Under the pieces are notes generated by a model. That model was not told the origin of the DNA. It was given only the letters and a program-made list of their open reading frames with translations, and searched no databases. The translations under genes and the position numbers were made by a program. From the NCBI RefSeq assembly GCF_013177675.1, contig NZ_CP042652.1:124001-188000 (forward strand): a stretch of 64,000 nucleotides of DNA. The letters run 5' to 3'. The DNA is from Arcobacter acticola. GTDB lineage: Bacteria > Campylobacterota > Campylobacteria > Campylobacterales > Arcobacteraceae. Below are positions 9,347 through 19,494 of this stretch, piece by piece. Numbering within the stretch: position 1 is the first letter of the stretch; every line of letters starts with the position of its first letter.

Positions 9347-10006
9347 ATGAAAATATTACTACTTGAAGATGATTTAATTTTAAATGAAATAATACAAGAA
9401 CACTTATTGGGGAAAAATCATAATGTAACTTCTGTTTTTTCAGGGGATGAAGCACAAGAGATAATCTACACTAAAACCTTTGATTTAATGCTTTTAGATG
9501 TAAATGTACCTAATATAAATGGCTTTGAATTATTGAAAGATTTAAGGGATAGTGGTATAAAAACACCTGCAATTTTTTTAACCTCTGCTCATATGCTAGA
9601 AGATGTAGAAAAAGGCTTTAAATCAGGTTGTGATGATTATATAAAAAAACCATTTGAACTGCGAGAATTAGATTTAAGAATAGAAAATATAAAAAGATTA
9701 CACAATATCTCACCTTCAAATAATATTGAAGTAACTAATAATATATTTCTAAATAAAGATAGTTTAACAATAAGTAATAATGGAAATAGTATTCATATTG
9801 CACAAAAAGAGAGTGAGGTATTAGAGTATTTAATAAAAAATAGAAATAAATCAGTTAGTATTGAAGAACTTAGTATAAATGTGTGGGCATATGAAGAAGC
9901 ACCAATGGCATCTACTATTAGAACTTATATTAAAAATCTTCGTAAAATTTTGGGTGAAGACTCAATTATAAATATAAGAGGAGTTGGTTATAGATTTAAC
10001 GGCTAG
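9347..10006 (+). CDS. OmpR-family response regulator (CusR-like)
   Basis: A 219-residue DNA-binding regulator. The receiver domain (1-120) has the acidic pair EDD at residues 7-9, the phospho-acceptor Asp in LMLLDVNVP (about 52) and the conserved Lys in DYIKKPFE. A winged-helix domain (about 125-219) ends in the typical TIRTYIKNLRKILGEDSI and NIRGVGYRF. It precedes its kinase and a heavy-metal efflux operon, so control of that operon in response to copper or silver is a reasonable inference. The ATG at 9347 has an AAGGAA ribosome site. Confidence 0.9.
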   Translation: MKILLLEDDLILNEIIQEHLLGKNHNVTSVFSGDEAQEIIYTKTFDLMLLDVNVPNINGFELLKDLRDSGIKTPAIFLTSAHMLEDVEKGFKSGCDDYIKKPFELRELDLRIENIKRLHNISPSNNIEVTNNIFLNKDSLTISNNGNSIHIAQKESEVLEYLIKNRNKSVSIEELSINVWAYEEAPMASTIRTYIKNLRKILGEDSIINIRGVGYRFNG

Positions 10007-11138
10007 TGAAAAAAGCACTTTTATAAGATTTCTTTCTTTATATTTGGGCTCATCTTTTTTGTTAATGTTAATGGTTGCCTTTTTTTATTTTCAAAATGAA
10101 AAAACATTATATTATGATTTAACAAAATCAAATATGCAAAATGTAGTCTCACAAATATCATCAAAAATAATATTTGCGCATATGACAAATAAGGAATTTG
10201 ATAAAAATTATTTATTAAAAACTGATGATTATAAAATATCTTTTTATGATGAAAATAAAAATAAGATATTCGGAAATTTAGAAGATAGAATTGATTTTAC
10301 AAAAACATTAATGGAACATCAAAAACATTTCATTTTAATTGATTCTTCCACTTTAGGTCATTTGGGAGTTTATTATATAGCCATTAAAGAGAATCTGTTT
10401 TTTGAGCAGATTAGTAAATTAAAAATGAGTATAGTATTTATATTTCTTTTTATTTATTTGATTATTGCAATAATAGGATTTTATTTAGCAAAGCTGTTTT
10501 TAAAGCCTATTAAAGATGAAAGAGAAAAACTTAATAACTTTATTAAAGATACGACTCATGAGTTAAATACACCCATTAGTGCTATTTTAATGTCAACAGA
10601 ATCAAATACTTTAAATGAAAAACAAATAGAGCGAATACGAATAAGCGCAAAAAGAGTATCTGAGTTGTATAAAGATTTAACATATATATTTTTACAAAAT
10701 AGTTATGATAAGAAATCTATTGAAATAGTAAATTTAAAACAGATAATAATAGATCAACTAGAGTATTTTCAACCCTTAGCAGTAAAAAAGAAAATAGATA
10801 TAAAATTGAAATTAGAAGATTTTGAATATAAAATAGATAAAGACGATTTTATAAGGATTTTTAATAATCTAATATCTAATGCAATTAAATACAACAAAAT
10901 ATCTGGAACAATAGAGATAAAACTTGAAAATAAAAGCTTAGAAATAAGTGATTCAGGCATTGGAATAGAACAAAATAAATTAAAAGATGTATTTAAAAGA
11001 TATTATAGAGCAACAACTGAGCAAGGTGGATTTGGGATAGGTCTTAGTATTGTAAATCAAATATGTAATAATTATAATATAAAAATATCAGTAAACTCAC
11101 AATTAAAAAAAGGAAGTACTTTTACTTTAACTTTTTAA
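9984..11138 (+). CDS. Sensor histidine kinase (CusS-like)
   Basis: A 384-residue membrane kinase with a TM helix near residues 15-35, a short periplasmic sensor loop, and a second TM helix near 148-170. An H-box DTTHELNTPIS follows, then N, G1 (DSGIGIE) and G2 (GGFGIGLSIV) boxes of an HATPase domain. No ATG is available: the TTG at 9984 lies 23 nt inside the preceding regulator and sits directly against GGAG, so the exact start is uncertain. It is coupled to the regulator upstream and lies 71 nt before the FixH-like gene. Confidence 0.87.
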   Translation: MVIDLTASEKSTFIRFLSLYLGSSFLLMLMVAFFYFQNEKTLYYDLTKSNMQNVVSQISSKIIFAHMTNKEFDKNYLLKTDDYKISFYDENKNKIFGNLEDRIDFTKTLMEHQKHFILIDSSTLGHLGVYYIAIKENLFFEQISKLKMSIVFIFLFIYLIIAIIGFYLAKLFLKPIKDEREKLNNFIKDTTHELNTPISAILMSTESNTLNEKQIERIRISAKRVSELYKDLTYIFLQNSYDKKSIEIVNLKQIIIDQLEYFQPLAVKKKIDIKLKLEDFEYKIDKDDFIRIFNNLISNAIKYNKISGTIEIKLENKSLEISDSGIGIEQNKLKDVFKRYYRATTEQGGFGIGLSIVNQICNNYNIKISVNSQLKKGSTFTLTF

Positions 11139-11148
11139 AACATAATCT

Positions 11149-11176
11149 ACACATTAACTCCTCACAAAATTTATAA
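11149..11176 (+). promoter_or_regulatory. Possible promoter of the FixH-Cus efflux operon
   Basis: Between the kinase stop and the FixH-like gene lie CACATTAA (11149-11156) and CACAAAATTT (11162-11171), then TATAAT at 11171-11176 as a candidate -10. The 10-mer CACAAAATTT recurs at 16961-16970 upstream of the YceI-bufferin operon, also just before a TATAAT. Use as a regulator site is inference; the motif is A+T-rich and could recur by chance. Confidence 0.3.
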
Positions 11177-11209
11177 TATACAATATATAAAAATTCTAAG
11201 GAGAAATAA

Positions 11210-11593
11210 ATGAAAAGTTTATTCAAAATATTTGCAGCATTATTAATCACAGTTGGTTTTTTAAATGCCCAAGCTTTGGAGCAAAGTGGACAAAAAGATG
11301 GTTATGACATTAAATTAAGTTCTCAAAAAAGTTTAATTGTAGGAACTAATGCTCTTGATATTGAAATTTCTAAAGATGGTGCAGTACTTACTGATGTAAA
11401 AGTAAAAATGAAAATCTTTATGCCTGAAATGCCAGGAATGCCTTATATGGAGTATGAAGATAAAGCTGTATTAGAAAACGGAGTTTATAAAGTAAATATT
11501 AACTTTAGTATGTCAGGAACATGGCAATATCATTTAAAATTTAAAACAAAAGATGATGCAGTTCATACAGTTAAAGGTAGTATAAATTTATAA
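11210..11593 (+). CDS. Secreted FixH/YtkA-like domain protein
   Basis: 127 residues with a signal peptide (MKSLFKIFAALLITVGFLNAQA). The mature part is a YtkA/FixH-type beta-sandwich with a Met-rich centre: KMKIFMPEMPGMPYMEYED holds five methionines that could bind Cu(I) or Ag(I). It ends in the typical GTWQYHLKF segment. Proteins of this kind are often encoded at the head of Cus-type efflux operons. It has a strong AAGGAGA ribosome site and its stop overlaps the next ATG by 1 nt, so it is the first gene of the efflux operon. Metal binding is inference from the methionines and context. Confidence 0.75.
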   Translation: MKSLFKIFAALLITVGFLNAQALEQSGQKDGYDIKLSSQKSLIVGTNALDIEISKDGAVLTDVKVKMKIFMPEMPGMPYMEYEDKAVLENGVYKVNINFSMSGTWQYHLKFKTKDDAVHTVKGSINL

Positions 11594-12789
11594 TGAAAAA
11601 GATATTACTATGCTTTAGTCTTACTGTTTGCCTATTATCAGCTGTGACAATAGATGAGCTAGTAAAGAATACAAATGAGAATAATTATGATTTAAAAAGT
11701 ATAGATAAGTCAATTGAAGTGGCAAATCATCAAATCTCACTATCTAAAAAGTGGCAAAATCCTACTTTGTCACTTGGATTAAATGACTTATGGCTTAACG
11801 ATTTAAGTTCAAGAGATAAAGAGGCTATGCAAGCCTCTTTTATAGGCTTATCACAAGTAATTCCAACAGGTTCAAAATTAGAAATAAAAGAGAAAATTGC
11901 CCAAAAAGATAGAAATATACAAATACTAAATCTTGAAGATAAAAAGCTAGAGTTAGAATCGAAAGTTTATGAGTATGTATATACTATTTTACTTTTAGAA
12001 AAAAAATATAATCTTTTAGAGTCTTATGAACAAAATATTAAAAAGCTAGAAGCTCTATTTACTTCTTTATATAAATATCAAAAAGTTACTCAAAATGAGA
12101 TATTAAATTCGCAAATATCGGCTTTAGATATAGGTTTACAAAAACAAAATCTTAAAAATATGATTGATAATTCATACTTAAAATTAGAGCAAATCACATA
12201 TACTAAGATTGATAAAATTGATGAAAATATTGATATAAAAAAGATAAACTTATTAACTATAAAGCAAGAGCACCCAAAGTTTAAAACCCTTGAGGAAATG
12301 GCAAATAAATCAAAAAATATGGCAGATTTAGAGGCTGAAAAAAAGATTCCTGATTTAATGCTAAATGTGGCTTATTTTCAAAGAGATTCAAAGTTTAATG
12401 ACTATGTAAATGTTAGTGTTAGTTTTCCACTTCCTATATATGATACAGAAAATACAGCTAGACTTCAAGCTAAAATGAATATGAATGAGACAAACGATAG
12501 ATTAGAACAGTTAAAACATAACTTTTCAATGCAAGGTGAAATATTAAAAAATAGTTTAAATAGTTCATATACAAATTACAATTTAATAGAAGAAAAAATA
12601 ATACCAATTAAAGAAAAAATACAAAAAAATATAGAGACATACAATAGCTTTGATAAGATTAAACCCCAAGAAAGTATTAAAAACTTAAATGAGTTAATAT
12701 CTTATGAAACAAAAGCGATAGATGAACTACAAAAATATTATGAAGCTTATTCTGCTTTATTATATTTTACAAATAAAGGCATAAAATGA
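11593..12789 (+). CDS. TolC-family outer-membrane efflux protein (CusC-like)
   Basis: 398 residues with a signal peptide (about 1-18) and two long helical repeats typical of outer-membrane efflux channels. The repeat KWQNPTLSLGLNDLW near residue 45 and its counterpart EKKIPDLMLNVAYFQRD near 252 mark the start of each half. It would form the exit duct of the tripartite pump with the next two products. It overlaps the adaptor gene by 4 nt (ATGA). Substrate assignment rests on the CusA-type pump downstream. Confidence 0.87.
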   Translation: MKKILLCFSLTVCLLSAVTIDELVKNTNENNYDLKSIDKSIEVANHQISLSKKWQNPTLSLGLNDLWLNDLSSRDKEAMQASFIGLSQVIPTGSKLEIKEKIAQKDRNIQILNLEDKKLELESKVYEYVYTILLLEKKYNLLESYEQNIKKLEALFTSLYKYQKVTQNEILNSQISALDIGLQKQNLKNMIDNSYLKLEQITYTKIDKIDENIDIKKINLLTIKQEHPKFKTLEEMANKSKNMADLEAEKKIPDLMLNVAYFQRDSKFNDYVNVSVSFPLPIYDTENTARLQAKMNMNETNDRLEQLKHNFSMQGEILKNSLNSSYTNYNLIEEKIIPIKEKIQKNIETYNSFDKIKPQESIKNLNELISYETKAIDELQKYYEAYSALLYFTNKGIK

Positions 12790-13799
12790 TTAAAAGTATA
12801 AAGATAATATTACTAAGCACCCTACTTTTAGGATCTGCATTAAACGCTGAAATTATAGAAGCCAAACAACTATTTAATAAGAAAATAGTAAAAGTAAAAA
12901 AAGAAGAATTAGCTCAAACAAAAAGTTTTTATGGAATAACAAAAATAGATGAAAGCTCATTGTTTGATATTGTAAGTAGATTTGATGGTTATATTACAAA
13001 GTTAAATGCGAATAAAACATATATGTCAATAAAAAAAGGTGAACCCCTATACTCTATTTATTCGGATGATATTTTAAGTATACAAAGTGAACTTCAAATA
13101 GCTAATGATTTTAATAAAAATATCTATAATTCAACACTTAAAAGACTAGATAATTTTGCAATTTCAAAATCCGAACAACAAAAAATAAAAAATGCAAAAG
13201 TAAATGAAAATGGTATAGTGGTTACCTCACCTGTAAATGGTATCTTACTTGAAAAAAAAATAAATAACTCAAGTGCCGTAAAAAAGGGAACTACCCTACT
13301 TCAACTTGCTTCTTTAGATAAAATTTGGTTTATTAGTTCTATTTACCAAAGTGACTTATCTTATGTAAAAAAAGGTATGGAAGCACAAATATCTATTGAT
13401 GGATTACATTCTAGCATAAAATCAACTATTGATTTTATCTACCCTACTTTTGATGAAAAAACAAAAACAGTTGATGTAAGATTTATACTTGATAATACAA
13501 ATAATGAATTAGTTCCAAGTATGTTTGGGAAAATTGATTTAACAGTAAATAAATCTCTTGTTTTAACACTACCAAAAACAGCTGTTTTAAAAAAAGCTGA
13601 TTCTTTTTATGTTTTTAAACCTACTTCAGATAGAGAATTTGAACCTATAAAAATAAATGCAAAAAGAGTATCTTCAAATAAGTATGAAATACTTGGTGGA
13701 TTAAAAGAAAATGATGAAGTTATAAACAATGCCCTATTCTTGCTTGATTCTGATGCTATTACAAATGCATTATATGAATCTGATAATGAAGATTGGTAG
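12786..13799 (+). CDS. Periplasmic adaptor (membrane fusion) subunit of a heavy-metal RND pump (CusB-like)
   Basis: 337 residues with a signal peptide ending near LNAEIIEA. The lipoyl/barrel-sandwich halves are SRFDGYITKLNANK and VTSPVNGILLEKKI, separated by a short helical hairpin. A beta-barrel domain and a membrane-proximal domain follow. It links the inner-membrane pump to the TolC-like channel. No His-rich or Met-rich N-terminal extension like that of E. coli CusB is seen. It sits between the channel and pump genes with 6 nt to the pump start. Confidence 0.87.
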   Translation: MIKSIKIILLSTLLLGSALNAEIIEAKQLFNKKIVKVKKEELAQTKSFYGITKIDESSLFDIVSRFDGYITKLNANKTYMSIKKGEPLYSIYSDDILSIQSELQIANDFNKNIYNSTLKRLDNFAISKSEQQKIKNAKVNENGIVVTSPVNGILLEKKINNSSAVKKGTTLLQLASLDKIWFISSIYQSDLSYVKKGMEAQISIDGLHSSIKSTIDFIYPTFDEKTKTVDVRFILDNTNNELVPSMFGKIDLTVNKSLVLTLPKTAVLKKADSFYVFKPTSDREFEPIKINAKRVSSNKYEILGGLKENDEVINNALFLLDSDAITNALYESDNEDW

Positions 13800-13805
13800 G
13801 GAAAA

Positions 13806-16800
13806 ATGGTAGAAAGTATAATCTCATATAGTGTTAGAAATAAGTTTTTAGTGCTATTTTCAGTAATCATTTTAACTTTTGCATCTTTGTGGGCTGTAAA
13901 AAATACAAGTTTAGATGCCTTACCTGATTTATCTCCACCTCAAGTTATAGTTCAAGTTGAATGGAAAGGTCAAAGTCCAAAAACAATTGAAGAGCAAATA
14001 TCATATCCTTTGATTTCAAATTTAATGTCTTTGCCAAATATTGATACAGTTAGAGCCATGAGTTCATTTTCAAATGCAATGATTTATATTATTTTTAAAG
14101 ATGGAACTGATATTTATGATTCAAGAAGCAGAATTTTAGAGCAGTTATCAACTCTTCAAGGAACATTTCCAGAAGGTTCAACTGTGCAAATAGGCCCTGA
14201 TGCCACAGGTGTTGGTTGGGCTTATGAATATGCTTTAACATCAAAAACAAAAAGCTTAGATGAGCTTAGAACTTTACAAGATTATTACTATAAATTTGCT
14301 CTTTTAGGGGTTGACGGAGTAAGTGAAATTGCATCAATTGGTGGTTTTGTTAAAAATTATGAAATCACACTAAATCAAGATAAATTAGTTCAATATGATT
14401 TAAGTATAGATGATGTTAAAAAAGCATTAGCAAATAATAATGATGAAAAAGGTGGAAGAATTATCTTAGAAAATGGCTATGAGCATATGATTCAAGCCAA
14501 AGCTTACCTAAAAAATGTTTTTGATATAGAAAACATTACAGTTAAAACTTTTAATTCAATTCCTTTAAAAATAAAAGATATAGCAAATGTAAATATTACA
14601 TCATCAAATAGAAGAGGAATGGTTGATTTAAACGGACAGGGTGATACTGTTGGAGGGATTGTAGTTGTTAGGTTTGGTGAAAATCCATATGCAGTTATAA
14701 AAGCTGTAAAAGCAAAGCTAGAAACTCTAAAAGTTGATGATGTTGAAGTAATTGAAACTTATGATAGAACTTCATTAATTGATAAAGCTATTGATACTTT
14801 AAAAAATACATTGATTGAAGAATCAATTATTGTAATGATAATTAGTGGATTATTCTTATTTCACTTTAGAAGTGCATTAATTATAATTATAACCTTGCCA
14901 ATAACTGTATTAATCACTTTTTTAATGATGAAAGCTTTTGGGATGGGCTCAAATATTATGAGTTTAGGTGGAATTGCAATAGCCATTGGAGCAATGGTTG
15001 ATGCCACTATTGTAATGGTTGAAAATGCACATAAATATTTGCAAGGAAAAGAAAATATTTCAAATAGTGAAAGAATTGAGATAATTATAAAATCAGCCAA
15101 ACAAGTTGGGCGACCAATATTTTTTGCTCTTATTTTAGTAGTTGTTTCTTTCTTACCAATATTTGCACTAACTGGACAAGAAGGGCGATTATTTGGTCCA
15201 TTAGCTTTCACTAAATCATTTGCAATGATTAGTGGGGCAATATTATCAATTACAATAGTTCCTATTTTAATGGTATTTTTAATTCGTGGAAAAATAATGG
15301 CTGAAGATAAAAATATATTAAATAAATTTTTCATAATGCTATATTCTCCACTTCTAAAAATTTCATTAAAACTTAGATATTTAGTTGTGGTGATTTTTAT
15401 TGGAACAATAATTCTTGCATATCCAGTTTATAAAAAACAAAATTGGGAATTTATGCCTATGATGAATGAACAGGTTTTTATGTATATGCCTGTAACTCCT
15501 TATGGAATAGGGATTGATTTAGCCAAAGAACTAACAAATAAAACAAATATAGTTTTAAAATCATTTCCAGAAGTTGATACTGTTTTTGGAAAAGCAGGGC
15601 GAGCACAAACAGCAACAGATCCCGCGCCATTAGCAATGATAGAAACAATAGTTACATTTAAACCAGAATCACAATGGCGAGAAGGAATGACATATAAAAA
15701 ACTAATGGAAGAAATGAATAAAAAGTTAGAAGTAGCAGGGCTAATTAATTCTTGGACTTATCCAATTAGAGGAAGAATTGATATGCTTCTAACAGGTATT
15801 AGAACACCTTTAGGAATTAAACTATATGGAAATAATCATGAGCAGTTAGAAAAAACAGCAGGAATAATTGAGCAAAAATTAAAAAAATTTGATAAAACAC
15901 TATCTGTTTCAACTGATAAAATAAATTCAGGTTATTATTTAAATATTGATATAAAAGAGGAGATGATTGCAAGATATGGAATTAGTAAAAATGATGTGAT
16001 ATCAACTATTTCTTTAGGAGTTGCAGGAGGACAAATATCTACATTTATAGATAAATTAGAAAGATATCCAATTACACTTAGATTTGAAACAACTCAAAGA
16101 GAGGATTTAATTAGTCTAGAAAATTTACAAGTTAAAACTAAATTAGGTTTTCAGCCTTTAAAAATGTTTGCTAATTTAGAGTATGAAGAGGGACCATCTG
16201 TAATAAAATCTGAAAAAGCATTAAATGTAAATTTTATATATATTACCCCAAAAGATGGCATATCTGCTAATCAATATAAAGAAGAAGCAAAAGAGTTGTT
16301 AAAAGATATAAAACTACCAAGTGGTTACTACTATGAGTGGGCAGGGCAGAGTGAATATTTAGAATCAGCTTTACAAAGACTTATTTATATTATTCCATTA
16401 ACTTTTGTGATTATATTTGTTCTTATATATTTAGCTTTAAGAAATTTAACATATACAATGATAATTTTCTTTACATTACCATTTGCTCTAACAGGAGGAA
16501 TATTTTATTTAGAGTTCTTGAATTTTAATATATCAATTGCTGTTATTGTAGGCTTTTTAGCACTACTTGGAGTTGCTGCTGAAACATCAATAGTAATGTT
16601 AGTTTATTTGCATGAAGCAATGCATGAGCTAAATGAAAAAAAATTACAAATAGATAAATCAGATATCTTTAATGCAATTTATAAAGGAGCGGTTTTAAGA
16701 TTAAGACCAAAACTTATGACCTTATTTGCAATTTTAGGTGGTTTAATTCCAATTATGTATATACATGGGGTTGGAAGTGAAGTAATGCAAAGAATTGCTG

Positions 16801-16922
16801 CTCCTATGATTGGAGGGATGCTTTCTTCGGCATTTTTAACTTTAATTATCATTCCTTCGATATTTTATATTCTTGCAATTAGAAAAAATGGAAAAATGCA
16901 AGAGGCTGATTTGCCTCATTAA
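13806..16922 (+). CDS. cusA: CusA-type heavy-metal RND efflux pump (Cu(I)/Ag(I))
   Basis: 1038 residues, normal for HME-RND pumps. Proton-relay residues are in the TM4 segment GAMVDATIVMVENAHKYL, and SFLPIFALTGQEGRLFGPLA is the usual motif. The three methionines that form the CusA metal site match by motif: FMYMPVTP, DPAPLAMIET and RIDMLLTGI. This supports monovalent copper or silver rather than zinc or cobalt. It is the last gene of the FixH-channel-adaptor-pump operon, 91 nt before a YceI gene. Confidence 0.92.
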   Translation: MVESIISYSVRNKFLVLFSVIILTFASLWAVKNTSLDALPDLSPPQVIVQVEWKGQSPKTIEEQISYPLISNLMSLPNIDTVRAMSSFSNAMIYIIFKDGTDIYDSRSRILEQLSTLQGTFPEGSTVQIGPDATGVGWAYEYALTSKTKSLDELRTLQDYYYKFALLGVDGVSEIASIGGFVKNYEITLNQDKLVQYDLSIDDVKKALANNNDEKGGRIILENGYEHMIQAKAYLKNVFDIENITVKTFNSIPLKIKDIANVNITSSNRRGMVDLNGQGDTVGGIVVVRFGENPYAVIKAVKAKLETLKVDDVEVIETYDRTSLIDKAIDTLKNTLIEESIIVMIISGLFLFHFRSALIIIITLPITVLITFLMMKAFGMGSNIMSLGGIAIAIGAMVDATIVMVENAHKYLQGKENISNSERIEIIIKSAKQVGRPIFFALILVVVSFLPIFALTGQEGRLFGPLAFTKSFAMISGAILSITIVPILMVFLIRGKIMAEDKNILNKFFIMLYSPLLKISLKLRYLVVVIFIGTIILAYPVYKKQNWEFMPMMNEQVFMYMPVTPYGIGIDLAKELTNKTNIVLKSFPEVDTVFGKAGRAQTATDPAPLAMIETIVTFKPESQWREGMTYKKLMEEMNKKLEVAGLINSWTYPIRGRIDMLLTGIRTPLGIKLYGNNHEQLEKTAGIIEQKLKKFDKTLSVSTDKINSGYYLNIDIKEEMIARYGISKNDVISTISLGVAGGQISTFIDKLERYPITLRFETTQREDLISLENLQVKTKLGFQPLKMFANLEYEEGPSVIKSEKALNVNFIYITPKDGISANQYKEEAKELLKDIKLPSGYYYEWAGQSEYLESALQRLIYIIPLTFVIIFVLIYLALRNLTYTMIIFFTLPFALTGGIFYLEFLNFNISIAVIVGFLALLGVAAETSIVMLVYLHEAMHELNEKKLQIDKSDIFNAIYKGAVLRLRPKLMTLFAILGGLIPIMYIHGVGSEVMQRIAAPMIGGMLSSAFLTLIIIPSIFYILAIRKNGKMQEADLPH

Positions 16923-16950
16923 GTTAAATAAATAAAATAATATAATCTAA

Positions 16951-16979
16951 ACAGTTACTACACAAAATTTTATTATAAT
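16951..16979 (+). promoter_or_regulatory. Possible promoter of the YceI-bufferin operon
   Basis: CACAAAATTT (16961-16970) sits just before TATAAT (16974-16979), in the same arrangement as upstream of the FixH-like gene at 11162. A shared operator for the adjacent response regulator is possible but unproven. Confidence 0.3.
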
Positions 16980-17013
16980 TTCTAAGTAACTTGAATAAAT
17001 ATAAGGAGAGAAA

Positions 17014-17592
17014 ATGAATTTTTTAACAAAAGTAACAAGTGCCTTAGTACTAACAGCTGGATTAGCAAGTGCAAGTGTTTATACACTTGATGCAGGTCAT
17101 ACAAATGTAGGATTTTCAGTAAAACACTTAATGATTACAAATGTAAAGGGTGATTTTAAAAAATATGATGCAACAATTGATTTTGATGCAGCTACAAAAA
17201 ATTTTAAAGTTTTTAAAGCAAATATTGACACAGCATCAGTTAATACAGGTATTGAGAAAAGAGATAACCATTTAAAAAGTGACGACTTCTTCTTATCTGA
17301 AAAATTCCCAAAAATGACTTTTGAAATGAAATCTTATGAATCTAATGGTGATGAAGGTAAAATGACTGGTGACCTTACAATCAGAGGTATTACAAAATCG
17401 GTTGTTTTAGATGTTGAAGATCTAGCAACAATAAAAGATTTTGAAGGTAATACTAGAGTTGGATTTACTTTAAATGGTAAAATCAATAGAATGGATTATG
17501 ATTTAAAATGGAATAAAGCATTGGAACTAGGTGGAGTTGCAGTTAGTGAAGAAGTAAAAATTATCGTTGACGTTCAAGCAAAAGAAAAGTAA
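17014..17592 (+). CDS. YceI-family periplasmic lipocalin-like protein (copy 1)
   Basis: 192 residues with a signal peptide (about 1-20, cleavage after LASAS). The family pattern is clear: DAGHTNVGFSVKHLMITNVKG, KRDNHLKSDDFF, KFPKMTFE, LTIRGITKSV and RMDYDLKWN. YceI proteins form a beta-barrel that binds polyisoprenoids; related proteins are linked to oxidative or metal stress. It has a strong AAGGAGAG ribosome site and is the first gene ahead of the bufferin cassette (56 nt gap). A second YceI gene lies at 38.4 kb. Confidence 0.92.
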   Translation: MNFLTKVTSALVLTAGLASASVYTLDAGHTNVGFSVKHLMITNVKGDFKKYDATIDFDAATKNFKVFKANIDTASVNTGIEKRDNHLKSDDFFLSEKFPKMTFEMKSYESNGDEGKMTGDLTIRGITKSVVLDVEDLATIKDFEGNTRVGFTLNGKINRMDYDLKWNKALELGGVAVSEEVKIIVDVQAKEK

Positions 17593-17647
17593 AAATTAAG
17601 TAAAAAATTTTAAAACATAATGAATAAATATAAAAAAAGGATATAAA

Positions 17648-17959
17648 ATGAATAATAAAATGAAATTAGCAGGTTTAATTTTAGGAGCAGCACTTACAAC
17701 ATCAGCAGCATATGCAGCAAATGGTTCTTGTGGAGCAGGTAAATGTGGTGGAGATATGAAGAAAGAAGTTACTGAAAAAGCAGCAGGTTCATGTGGAGCA
17801 GGTAAATGTGGTGGAGATATGAAAAAAGAAGTTACTGAAAAAGCAGCAGGTTCTTGTGGAGCAGGTAAATGTGGTGGAGATATGAAAAAAGAGATGAAAT
17901 CTGAAATGAAAGAAAAAGCTACAGGTTCTTGTGGTGCTGGTAAATGTGGAAGCAAATAA
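17648..17959 (+). CDS. Bufferin-type RiPP precursor: secreted Cys-rich peptide with four SCGAGKCG motifs
   Basis: 103 residues. A Sec signal peptide (KLAGLILGAALTTSAAYA, cleavage near residue 23) is followed by GSCGAGKCGGDMKKEVTEKAA at residue 26, repeated at 47 and 68; a final GSCGAGKCGSK starts at 93. Cysteines fall at 28/33, 49/54, 70/75 and 95/100. Precursors of the bufferin/oxazolin (HvfA-like) family carry EGKCG repeats whose cysteines are modified by a DUF692/MNIO enzyme and then bind copper. Here the motif reads AGKCG. The enzyme and its partner follow directly, which makes the assignment strong despite the simple sequence. Chemistry and copper binding are inferred from the family. 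Confidence 0.85.
   Translation: MNNKMKLAGLILGAALTTSAAYAANGSCGAGKCGGDMKKEVTEKAAGSCGAGKCGGDMKKEVTEKAAGSCGAGKCGGDMKKEMKSEMKEKATGSCGAGKCGSK
17723..17940 (+). repeat. 63-bp in-frame tandem repeats inside the bufferin precursor
   Basis: Near-identical 63-bp units begin at 17723, 17786 and 17849, differing at only a few third positions (for example TCT/TCA at the Ser codon). A partial fourth unit begins at 17924 after 75 bp. Each unit encodes one SCGAGKCGG motif plus a Lys/Glu-rich linker. The near-identity points to recent duplication and possible copy-number change between strains. Confidence 0.9.
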
Positions 17960-17984
17960 TTAAAGCTTCTACAAAAGATATAAT

Positions 17985-18809
17985 ATGCTAAATATAAAAG
18001 GTTGTGGATTAGGTCTTAGAAGTGATTTTCTATTAGATTTAAAAAACAGCGATTTTAATCCAGATTTTTGGGAGATAACTCCTGAAAACTGGATGCATAT
18101 GCCTAAAATATTTGAAAAAGCCTTTGAAGAGGCAGTTTTCTCAAAACCCACAGTTGCACATGGTTTATCTTTATCAATTGGGTCTGCTGATAAACTAAAT
18201 AAAAAATTCGTTAAACAAATCAAAACATTTTTAGATAGATATAATATCGAACACTATTCTGAGCATCTTAGCTTCTCTTCACTTGATGGAAATCAAAGTT
18301 ATGAATTATTGCCACTTCCAATGACTAAAAATATGGTGAGTATAATAAGTGATAGAGTAAAAGAGGTTGAGGATATTATTCAAAGAAATTTGATACTTGA
18401 AAATGCAACATACTATTTAGTTCCTTATTCTGAAATGGCTGAGGTTGATTTTATAAATGAAGTTTTAGATAAATCAGGTGCTAAAATGCTTTTAGATGTG
18501 AATAATGTATTCGTAAATGCATCTAATCACTCTTTTAAATCAAGAAGATTTATAGATGAAATTGATAAATCAAAAGTAGCATATATGCATATTGCAGGTC
18601 ATTATCATGATAATGAGTTTGATATGAAAATAGATTCTCATGGAATGCCAGTTTGTTCTGGAGTTTGGAAATTACTTGAATATACTTTAAAACAGCTAGA
18701 TGCACCTATTATGATAGAAAGGGATAATAATATCCCACCGCTTTTAGAGCTGCAAAGTGAATATAATCAAATGAAAGATATTGTTCAAAGAGTTAGAAAT
18801 GCAAACTGA
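17985..18809 (+). CDS. DUF692 / MNIO enzyme, bufferin maturation (BufB/HvfB-like)
   Basis: 274 residues, a TIM-barrel multinuclear non-heme iron oxidase. Family motifs are all present: GCGLGLR at 6-12, EITPENWM near 32, AHGLSLSIGS near 53, HYSEHLSFS near 87, ILENATYY, LLLDVNNVFVNA near 174, MHIAGH near 205, DSHGMP and IMIERDNN. The His, Asp and Glu in these motifs are the usual iron ligands. Relatives oxidise precursor cysteines into heterocycles or thioamides. It starts 25 nt after the precursor with only a weak ribosome site, which would give less enzyme than substrate. Confidence 0.9.
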   Translation: MLNIKGCGLGLRSDFLLDLKNSDFNPDFWEITPENWMHMPKIFEKAFEEAVFSKPTVAHGLSLSIGSADKLNKKFVKQIKTFLDRYNIEHYSEHLSFSSLDGNQSYELLPLPMTKNMVSIISDRVKEVEDIIQRNLILENATYYLVPYSEMAEVDFINEVLDKSGAKMLLDVNNVFVNASNHSFKSRRFIDEIDKSKVAYMHIAGHYHDNEFDMKIDSHGMPVCSGVWKLLEYTLKQLDAPIMIERDNNIPPLLELQSEYNQMKDIVQRVRNAN

Positions 18810-19494
18810 TAAAACAATAGAAAGAGAAATTCAAGATAGATTTTTTGACCTTATTACAAATCAAAAAGAGAACAAAACTTCCAATGCCTTTAAAGTTTAT
18901 CAAAAATTAGTCTTTTATAGATATGAAGAGATTATAAAAAGCACCTTTGTTCAATTTATAAAGAATATTTCTGAAAGAGAATTAGAAAACTCTATTTATG
19001 AATTTTTAAAAAATCCTCCTAAAACAGAATTTGTTTGGAAAATAGCAAATGATTATATTAAGTTTGTAAAAAAACTAAAACTTTTTCATGATAGGAAATA
19101 CTTATATGAGCTTTTATATTTTGACTGGATTGAAGTTGAAATATATATGAAAGAGTATAAGCTAAAAGAAAATGATTTCTCTTGGGATAGTTATTATTGT
19201 CTTTCAAAAAGTGCTAGAGTAAAAAAATTTCAATATGACATTATAAATGCAAATCATAAAGAAAAAAGAGAGAATTATCTAATAATCTATTATGATTTTA
19301 ATACCGATGAGGTTTTATTCAGAGAAATAAATCAGTTTATCTATGTATTGATCAAAAAAATGAAATATTCTACTTTAGAATCTACTTTAAATGAGATATG
19401 TAAAGAAAATGAAATAGAATTTAATGAAGCTAAAGAGATTTTACAAGAGCCTTTAAAGGAACTTATCCAAAATAGGGCGCTTGCATTAAATTAG
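18799..19494 (+). CDS. DUF2063-family partner of the MNIO enzyme (BufC/HvfC-like)
   Basis: The ATG at 18799 overlaps the MNIO gene by 11 nt and is preferred over a TTG at 18781. The product is 231 residues. The N-terminal DUF2063 domain has a helical start (REIQDRFFDLITN), the family-like region VYQKLVFYRYEEIIKSTF, and LYELLYFDWIEVE. The C-terminal domain (after about residue 155, LIIYYDFNTDEVLFREIN) resembles the winged-helix-like region of HvfC proteins. In related systems this protein binds the precursor and the MNIO enzyme. It is annotated elsewhere as a putative DNA-binding protein, but the partner role fits better here. Its stop overlaps the convergent MATE gene by 4 nt. Confidence 0.82.
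   Translation: MQTDKTIEREIQDRFFDLITNQKENKTSNAFKVYQKLVFYRYEEIIKSTFVQFIKNISERELENSIYEFLKNPPKTEFVWKIANDYIKFVKKLKLFHDRKYLYELLYFDWIEVEIYMKEYKLKENDFSWDSYYCLSKSARVKKFQYDIINANHKEKRENYLIIYYDFNTDEVLFREINQFIYVLIKKMKYSTLESTLNEICKENEIEFNEAKEILQEPLKELIQNRALALN

Follow-up and report, generated by a model that had tools for sequence, protein, structure and literature searches.

We propose that the window analysed here (the whole 64,000-nucleotide stretch, positions 124001-188000 of a 3.02-Mb single-contig genome of Arcobacter acticola) carries a working Campylobacterota-type HvfABC cassette, of the Lys-Cys group of captophorins, at the end of a Cus/Czc-type metal-efflux operon, a reading from sequence and predicted folds to which we assign a probability of about 75%. 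Gene order, family, predicted folds, invariant catalytic residues and clade membership are its demonstrated parts. In the mechanism that we envisage, the PME1 protein would bind the precursor in the cytoplasm, probably via the conserved signal peptide, because no NPF..GY-type leader segment lies between signal peptide and core. The MNIO would turn the cysteines of the GSCG and AGKCG pentamers into 5-thiooxazoles, Sec would export the modified peptide afterwards, and the exported peptide would bind periplasmic copper beside the RND pump. The features of the operon, in window coordinates, are:

9347-10006 and 9984-11138 (9347..11138), + strand: response regulator and sensor kinase heading the operon (heavy-metal models below cut-off)
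11210..11593, + strand: YtkA-like (PF13115) exported protein (Pfam)
11593..12789, + strand: probable outer-membrane efflux channel (operon position; IhpA/TolC models far below cut-off, a weak assignment)
12786..13799, + strand: RND periplasmic adaptor, CzcB/CusB-like (TIGR01730 above cut-off; CzcB and CusB models below)
13806..16922, + strand: CusA/CzcA heavy-metal RND efflux transporter (TIGR00914, 993 bits, cut-off 701)
17014..17592, + strand: YceI-family exported protein immediately 5' of the precursor, a common neighbour in relatives (profile match)
17648..17959, + strand: precursor, 103 aa (NF050137 match, tandem repeat, homologues)
17985..18809, + strand: MNIO (DUF692, PF05114) maturase, HvfB-like, 274 aa (PF05114, 285.2 bits, cut-off 25)
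18799..19494, + strand: PME1 partner (DUF2063-like helical domain plus RRE fold), HvfC-like (PF22106, predicted fold)

Ten same-direction genes, overlapping or separated by at most 91 bp, fill positions 9347-19494 in the order response regulator, sensor kinase, YtkA-like protein, outer-membrane channel, adaptor, CusA/CzcA pump, YceI, precursor, MNIO and PME1, and a MATE transporter gene opposes the 3' end of the operon, convergent to the cassette. The pump and the family suggest a copper role for the operon, which we keep as a suggestion because the heavy-metal models for the two-component genes fall below cut-off. A CusA-like pump is in reach (0.8-12 kb) of 21 of 40 relative regions by raw count, in the same orientation in 13 and on the opposite strand in 8, and YceI is in reach (0.8-12 kb) of 20 of the 40. 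A promoter search returned 20 hits against 18.3 expected, which is uninformative. The window genome has one MNIO match and one precursor match, with no second match to the degenerate pattern CGxGKCG (the second base of the x codon being C or G, which excludes Glu). DoxX was considered as a missing part of the cassette and ruled out, being absent from it; the genome's single DoxX match lies approximately 1 Mb away.

The precursor starts with MNNKMKLAGLILGAALTTSAAYA, judged by eye to be signal-peptide-like, and its signal peptide covers approximately residues 1-23. It contains exactly four GSCGAGKCG units and eight cysteines in total, with Lys/Met/Glu-rich linkers between the double pentamers, and the repeat DNA is a 63-bp tandem array of 2.7 copies with 97% matches. 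The secreted 103-residue precursor with four such motifs described in an earlier note on this DNA is thus confirmed by ORF, repeat count and signal-like start. It passes the NCBIfam model NF050137 (30.6 bits, cut-off 19.5). Each unit consists of two pentamers, (A/N/T)GSCG and AGKCG, in which position 1 is Ala, Asn or Thr and the cysteines are spaced CxxxxC. The same spacing is found in HvfA, with its three AEGKCGEGKCG units (PMC13419390, a preprint, available text), and in FonA, where residues 67-80 are SGEAKCGEGKCGEK (PMC13097082, available text). The earlier note's "extra SCG" with a new cysteine spacing was therefore a misreading of two ordinary pentamers, and the spacing, being canonical, gives no reason to expect the different metal site that the note drew from it. 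The precursor departs from the EGKCG pattern in having Ala for Glu and, in the first pentamer, Ser for Lys. KCG pentamers repeated in an exported precursor are the mark of Lys-Cys captophorins and occur here; the position-1 Glu of EGKCG/oxazolin precursors is absent from the window precursor, and DUF2282, the mark of Bufferin Buf1, gave no Pfam match at E up to 1.

The MNIO and its partner were also correctly recognized in that note. PF05114 is passed by the MNIO and NGO1945_C (PF22106) by the partner (31.9 bits, cut-off 27); the DUF2063 model itself (PF09836) stays below its cut-off at 21.4 bits (27.2), and the fold matches partners of this kind. The likeliest start of the partner is ATG 18799 (231 aa), giving an ORF that overlaps the MNIO stop by 11 bases, rather than the mechanical TTG 18781. 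The MNIO model (pLDDT 91.8) has 3bww as its best structural match (TM 0.81), and the partner model (pLDDT 92.9) has 3dee (TM 0.68/0.78), followed by TglI and, more weakly, MbnC (E 0.03), so that the predicted fold of the partner agrees with known PME1 partners. Eleven MNIO residues (H59, E139, D171, N173, N174, H202, H206, D217, H219, E245 and D247) are invariant in an alignment of 26 Campylobacterota MNIOs, which omits three further loci that are partial or fused, and also in 32 mixed MNIOs. By sequence context, N173, D217 and H219 would correspond to HvfB N175, D242 and H244, reported as essential in the available text of PMC13419390 (preprint). Mapped by motif context, R12, S13, D247 and N248 would correspond to FonB R15, R16, D249 and F250, of which D249 is the catalytic base (PMC13097082, available text). 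At one further locus (L025, 1486-3051), MNIO and PME1 are apparently fused in a 521-aa ORF, and no adjoining precursor was found. At another (L022), the converse of the orphan loci described below, both MNIO and PME1 are intact but the neighbouring precursor-like ORF (2315-2548) has a single Cys left.

One of the closest known systems is HvfABC/oxazolin of Haemophilus influenzae (the Buf_EGKCG/oxazolin family), which shares the signal peptide, double KCG pentamers, CxxxxC spacing, MNIO, and PME1 with RRE. In contrast to HvfABC, the window precursor has Ala for Glu, Ser for Lys in the first pentamer and no NPF..GY-like segment, and the cassette has no DoxX (HvfX), Asn in place of Phe250 and an enzyme of the sister clade. 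Family, clade and precursor sequence thus bear out the description of a RiPP cassette related to HvfABC with Ala replacing Glu. Among the points against our main reading, the equivalog models are all missed (28.7 bits against a cut-off of 95 for HvfA, 312.8 against 360 for HvfB and 64.3 against 142 for HvfC), DoxX is absent from the cassette, and the E6A change of FonA (Glu between the two cysteines), a state that is natural here, lowered turnover by FonBC (PMC13097082, available text). Fontiphorin FonABC, with the other Lys-Cys captophorins carrying 5-thiooxazole, is the best biochemical model, and FonBC tolerates most such single substitutions (PMC13097082, available text); FonB has Arg16 and Phe250 and FonA has Glu between the cysteines, and the window differs in all of these. 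Bufferins Buf1 (DUF2282) and Buf2 are likewise exported and accompanied by MNIO and PME1, and copper sequestration has been reported for them, but the window precursor has no DUF2282 match and its MNIO belongs to another clade. The label "Bufferin-type" is imprecise: the enzyme belongs with the Lys-Cys (HvfB) MNIOs rather than the DUF2282-linked ones. Bacterial metallothionein-like peptides resemble the CxC clusters at orphan relatives L201 and L198, whereas the window peptide has CxxxxC modules only, plus an enzyme pair. That the variant may not have been described is upheld in a limited sense: Campylobacter is not mentioned in the available text of PMC12452194, PMC13097082 and PMC12538549, and the string AGKCG is absent from the available text of two MNIO papers among the matches listed, with supplements outside the scope in both cases.

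The window enzyme belongs to a clade with its own substrate code. We compared 134 distinct MNIOs from 171 matching loci, 61 of them from Campylobacterota and 73 from elsewhere, the latter picked by similarity to the query and not a random sample. A quick tree held 132 of the 134, and a careful rooted tree of 61 rows combined 51 of the 134 with 10 plasmid MNIOs. In the rooted tree, the Lys-Cys MNIOs, including that of the window, are monophyletic (support 100/100); Campylobacterota and Hydrogenothermaceae form one clade within them (99/93), whose sister comprises the EGKCG enzymes of Pseudomonadota and Bacteroidota (97/90). Nine plasmid MNIOs, five annotated beside DUF2282 genes, fall outside the Lys-Cys group, and the tenth (L185) falls inside the EGKCG clade. 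A CxxxxC doublet was found at 58 of the 61 Campylobacterota MNIO loci and at 51 of the 73 others; Glu follows the first CG, between the doublet cysteines, in 0/58 of the former and 51/51 of the latter. This substrate trait changes once on the tree of 132 MNIOs, so Glu loss marks the clade. Both Hydrogenothermaceae (Aquificota) MNIOs that group with Campylobacterota (L041 and L065) accompany differently built Cys precursors. Canonical CGEGKCG does occur in 3 of 298 Campylobacterota genomes, with no MNIO-like ORF in the 3 kb read and no genome MNIO match; a relict EGKCG cassette was accordingly rejected for them.

The pocket differs along the same divide. Among Campylobacterota MNIOs readable at residue 248, 57 of 60 have Asn there (Ser, Gly and His once each); the 72 readable others have Phe in 66, Tyr in 3, Leu in 1 and Asn in 2, both of the last being the Hydrogenothermaceae enzymes. 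Residue 13 in Campylobacterota is Ser in 35, Arg in 15, Asp in 4, Glu in 3, Asn in 2 and Lys and Thr in one each, from which these MNIOs appear to lack a conserved equivalent of Arg16. This pocket (Asn for Phe250, with Ser for Arg16 in the window's subclade) may suit small uncharged residues at position 1. It is tempting to suppose that Asn248 and Ser13 co-evolved independently with the loss of Glu and Lys from the substrate, and the near-complete split at position 248 (Asn in 57/60 Campylobacterota; Phe, Tyr or Leu in 70/70 readable others outside Hydrogenothermaceae) would fit, but we consider this doubtful. With a single evolutionary switch in the substrate trait, only one independent pair can be drawn for residue 248 and substrate Glu, and enzyme-substrate co-evolution is therefore not proven. 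Moreover, none of the nine outgroup enzymes from beyond the Lys-Cys group has an aromatic residue at 248, so that Phe may be the derived state, and both Hydrogenothermaceae enzymes have Asn despite their differently built precursor. Independent co-variation of residue 13 with the first-pentamer Lys found no support on the tree.

In the absence of such a leader segment, the signal peptide would probably be what PME1 recognizes. For Buf1, preliminary evidence places the signal peptide within the recognition sequence (PMC12452194, available text). Counted from the mechanical ORF start, the first core Cys lies at a median residue of 30 in 58 Campylobacterota precursors versus 55 in 52 others. By loose patterns, signal peptide and core are separated by an NPF..GY-like stretch in 35/52 others and 2/58 Campylobacterota precursors, and a LAGxLLG/VILG-type pattern precedes the core in 57/58 Campylobacterota and 4/52 others. 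On a signal-peptide profile, the two genomes in the window's genus that have the enzymes score 37.0 and 37.0 and 29 linked loci of other genera, left out of training, score 33.3 at the lowest, against 8.4-26.3 for the 13 orphans of the window's genus. The orphan-to-linked ratio of 0.43 for the precursor is the largest drop, compared with 0.60 for FixH/YtkA-like, 0.62 for OMF, 1.26 for YceI and 2.24 for the adaptor. In plain identity to the window, the precursor signal peptides of same-genus orphans fall below those of other genera (54.9 vs 63.0%), but same-genus orphans are nearer for YceI (56.1 vs 39.7), OMF (66.5 vs 38.8) and the adaptor (49.2 vs 38.0), and equal for FixH/YtkA-like (46.3 vs 47.9). 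Drift of the orphan signal peptides agrees with a lost constraint from enzyme recognition and is suggestive rather than proof, because the controls are mixed, with FixH/YtkA-like and OMF also dropping. Six precursors (L005, L006, L008, L009, L012 and L020) start with MNRR(K/E)AM..., which is twin-arginine-like rather than plain Sec.

By analogy, the same 5-thiooxazole chemistry is our default expectation for the window cassette, because FonBC tolerates most variants at positions 1, 2 and 3. According to the available text of PMC13097082, it processed all non-Pro variants tested at positions 1 and 2 apart from Arg at position 1, and accepted Ala, Arg and Thr at position 3; after the Cys, Ala was the only accepted change from Gly. 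An alternative hypothesis is that only the AGKCG cysteine is converted and the GSCG cysteine stays a thiol, giving mixed thiol/thiooxazole sites unlike those of known Lys-Cys captophorins. In 125 modules of enzyme-linked precursors (31 loci), the residue before the first Cys is Ser in 96, Ala in 25, Gly in 3, Thr in 1 and never Lys, and Lys precedes the second Cys in 125/125, an observation in favour of this alternative. The pocket residues of the window clade differ from those of FonB, and FonBC itself required two repeats, was impaired by E6A and modified the Glu-less motifs AKCGA, GKCGT and NVCGG only once (PMC13097082, available text). However, FonBC tolerated Ala, Arg and Thr at position 3 and residues other than Glu, Arg and Pro at position 1, and Gly, the strict position of FonBC, is kept after the first Cys in all 125 linked modules, which suggests that the first Cys is processed too. 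We regard mixed sites as unlikely, and full conversion as the preferred reading.

Most close relatives that have the precursor gene lack its two enzyme genes. MNIO occurs in 2 of the 31 genomes of the window's genus, and PME1 in the same two. A close homologue of the facing MATE gene is present in 15 of the 31 and the CGxGKCG pattern in the same 15. In 13 of these, the precursor occupies the position that it has in the window, and genome searches gave neither an MNIO nor a PME1 match. An RND pump lies upstream in 13/13 of these orphan loci and YceI in 12/13, and in 12/13 the MATE match ends 32-56 bp downstream of the precursor; in the thirteenth (L198), a second Cys-rich peptide, itself with CxC clusters, intervenes. 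Six of the 13 orphan genomes are 99-100% complete in one or two contigs. Conserved linkage of precursor and enzymes, raised in the earlier note, thus holds for most relatives with such an MNIO and fails in 13 of 15 same-genus precursor genomes. Of the 104 genomes of the family, 37 gave an MNIO match. CGxGKCG is present in these 37 and in a further 18 (55 in total); in two of the MNIO-less 18 (G120 and G347), the pattern belongs to other peptides away from this locus. Further precursors without an adjoining MNIO lie directly after CusA in three g3 genomes and after YceI in one g6 genome; in one of the g3 genomes (G317), a distant match to MNIO (E 2e-13) was obtained at another place. MNIO presence changes at least four times on a midpoint-rooted CusA tree (37 loci), where relatives with an MNIO surround G304, G164 and the g3 group, and at least twice on a midpoint-rooted MATE tree (24 loci, excluding the 13 same-genus orphans, for which the MATE sequence was truncated). 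As synteny is shared, repeated loss is the simplest reading, although regain is possible. A Buf_EGKCG precursor with no MNIO was reported for 67/2583 genomes (PMC12452194 Table 3, as available), which is not strictly comparable with the 18/55 species-level genomes here, since criteria differ.

The orphan modules remain under purifying selection. In 60 CxxxxC modules from 16 loci of MNIO-free genomes, compared with the 125 linked modules, the second Cys retains its preceding Gly and Lys and its following Gly in 60/60, and after the first Cys stand 56 Gly, 3 Asn and 1 Ala; Thr stands between the cysteines in 22/60 orphan and 0/125 linked modules. With a pattern that fixes only the two cysteines and orphans from MNIO-free genomes only, pN/pS is 0.093 for orphan and 0.030 for linked modules, a threefold difference between non-independent pairs. 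Values of 0.092 and 0.014, respectively, were set aside, as they came from a pattern with GKCG fixed and drew on L248 and L251 despite an MNIO match at another place in both genomes. Since the peptide has persisted under purifying selection in relatives from which both maturation genes were lost, the modules would be useful even unmodified, presumably as a plain thiol metal binder. Taken further, the peptide could be mainly an unmodified thiol binder in the window as well, with a vestigial or minor MNIO and PME1. The 13 same-genus genomes and the wide occurrence of MNIO-less modules in the order speak for this, but the window MNIO and PME1 are intact ORFs, the MNIO keeps its conserved catalytic residues, and linked modules are the more constrained, as expected if an enzyme reads them; we hold it to be very improbable beside a working cassette.

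Across the order, CGxGKCG occurs in 80 of 298 genomes and MNIO in 28; comparison of the two tables gives 24 genomes with both and 56 with the motif but no MNIO. Among 20 hand-chosen motif regions, 19 from MNIO-less genomes, an ORF carries the motif in 18, and Pfam was run on ten of the motif proteins. The motif is found, among other settings, in small peptides of exported or lipoprotein-like type next to DoxX, at the N terminus of YtkA-like proteins and at the C terminus of a cytochrome c. The order-wide set therefore mixes several protein types and is not a count of HvfA-like precursors. CGxGKCG alone is not diagnostic of modification in Campylobacterota, because the motif far outnumbers MNIO and occurs in fusions. 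A PCu(A)C copper-chaperone domain protein of G317 (L249, 2614-3141; PF04314, 135 bits) has a C-terminal tail of two SCGSGKCG modules, and YtkA-like proteins at L259, L268, L271 and L272 (Pfam-checked for L259 and L271) have an N-terminal MKCGAGKCG module that the window's own YtkA-like protein lacks. CGxGKCG peptides stand beside a DoxX gene in genomes without an MNIO match at L246, L255, L256, L262, L266 and L267 (DoxX Pfam-checked for L246, L255, L262 and L266); by sequence, this would be an HvfA-HvfX-like pair minus HvfB and HvfC. In two MNIO-positive genomes (L252 and L253), exported Cys-rich proteins of 171-189 aa combine GSCGAGKCG modules with CxC clusters. We give even odds to the broader idea that CGxGKCG in Campylobacterota is a general exported metal-binding module, used with or without MNIO chemistry and appended to PCu(A)C, YtkA-like and cytochrome proteins, for which the maturases are optional and were lost several times with the peptide kept.

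Automatic naming calls for caution: all four of the orphan precursors run against NF050137 (L196, L203, L243 and L201, the last with CxC clusters inside it), from MNIO-negative genomes, pass this model, whose description reads "oxazolone/thioamide-modified RiPP metallophore". The cassette of the window would add to the thiooxazole metallophores a sister clade whose substrate code and pocket both differ, and this clade offers a natural test of the proposed selectivity of FonB Arg16/Phe250 and of the Glu6 repositioning idea. The orphans make it testable what modification adds over plain thiols in copper handling, and if the general-module reading is true, genera in which both states occur would offer a natural comparison of what 5-thiooxazole formation contributes beyond a thiol peptide.
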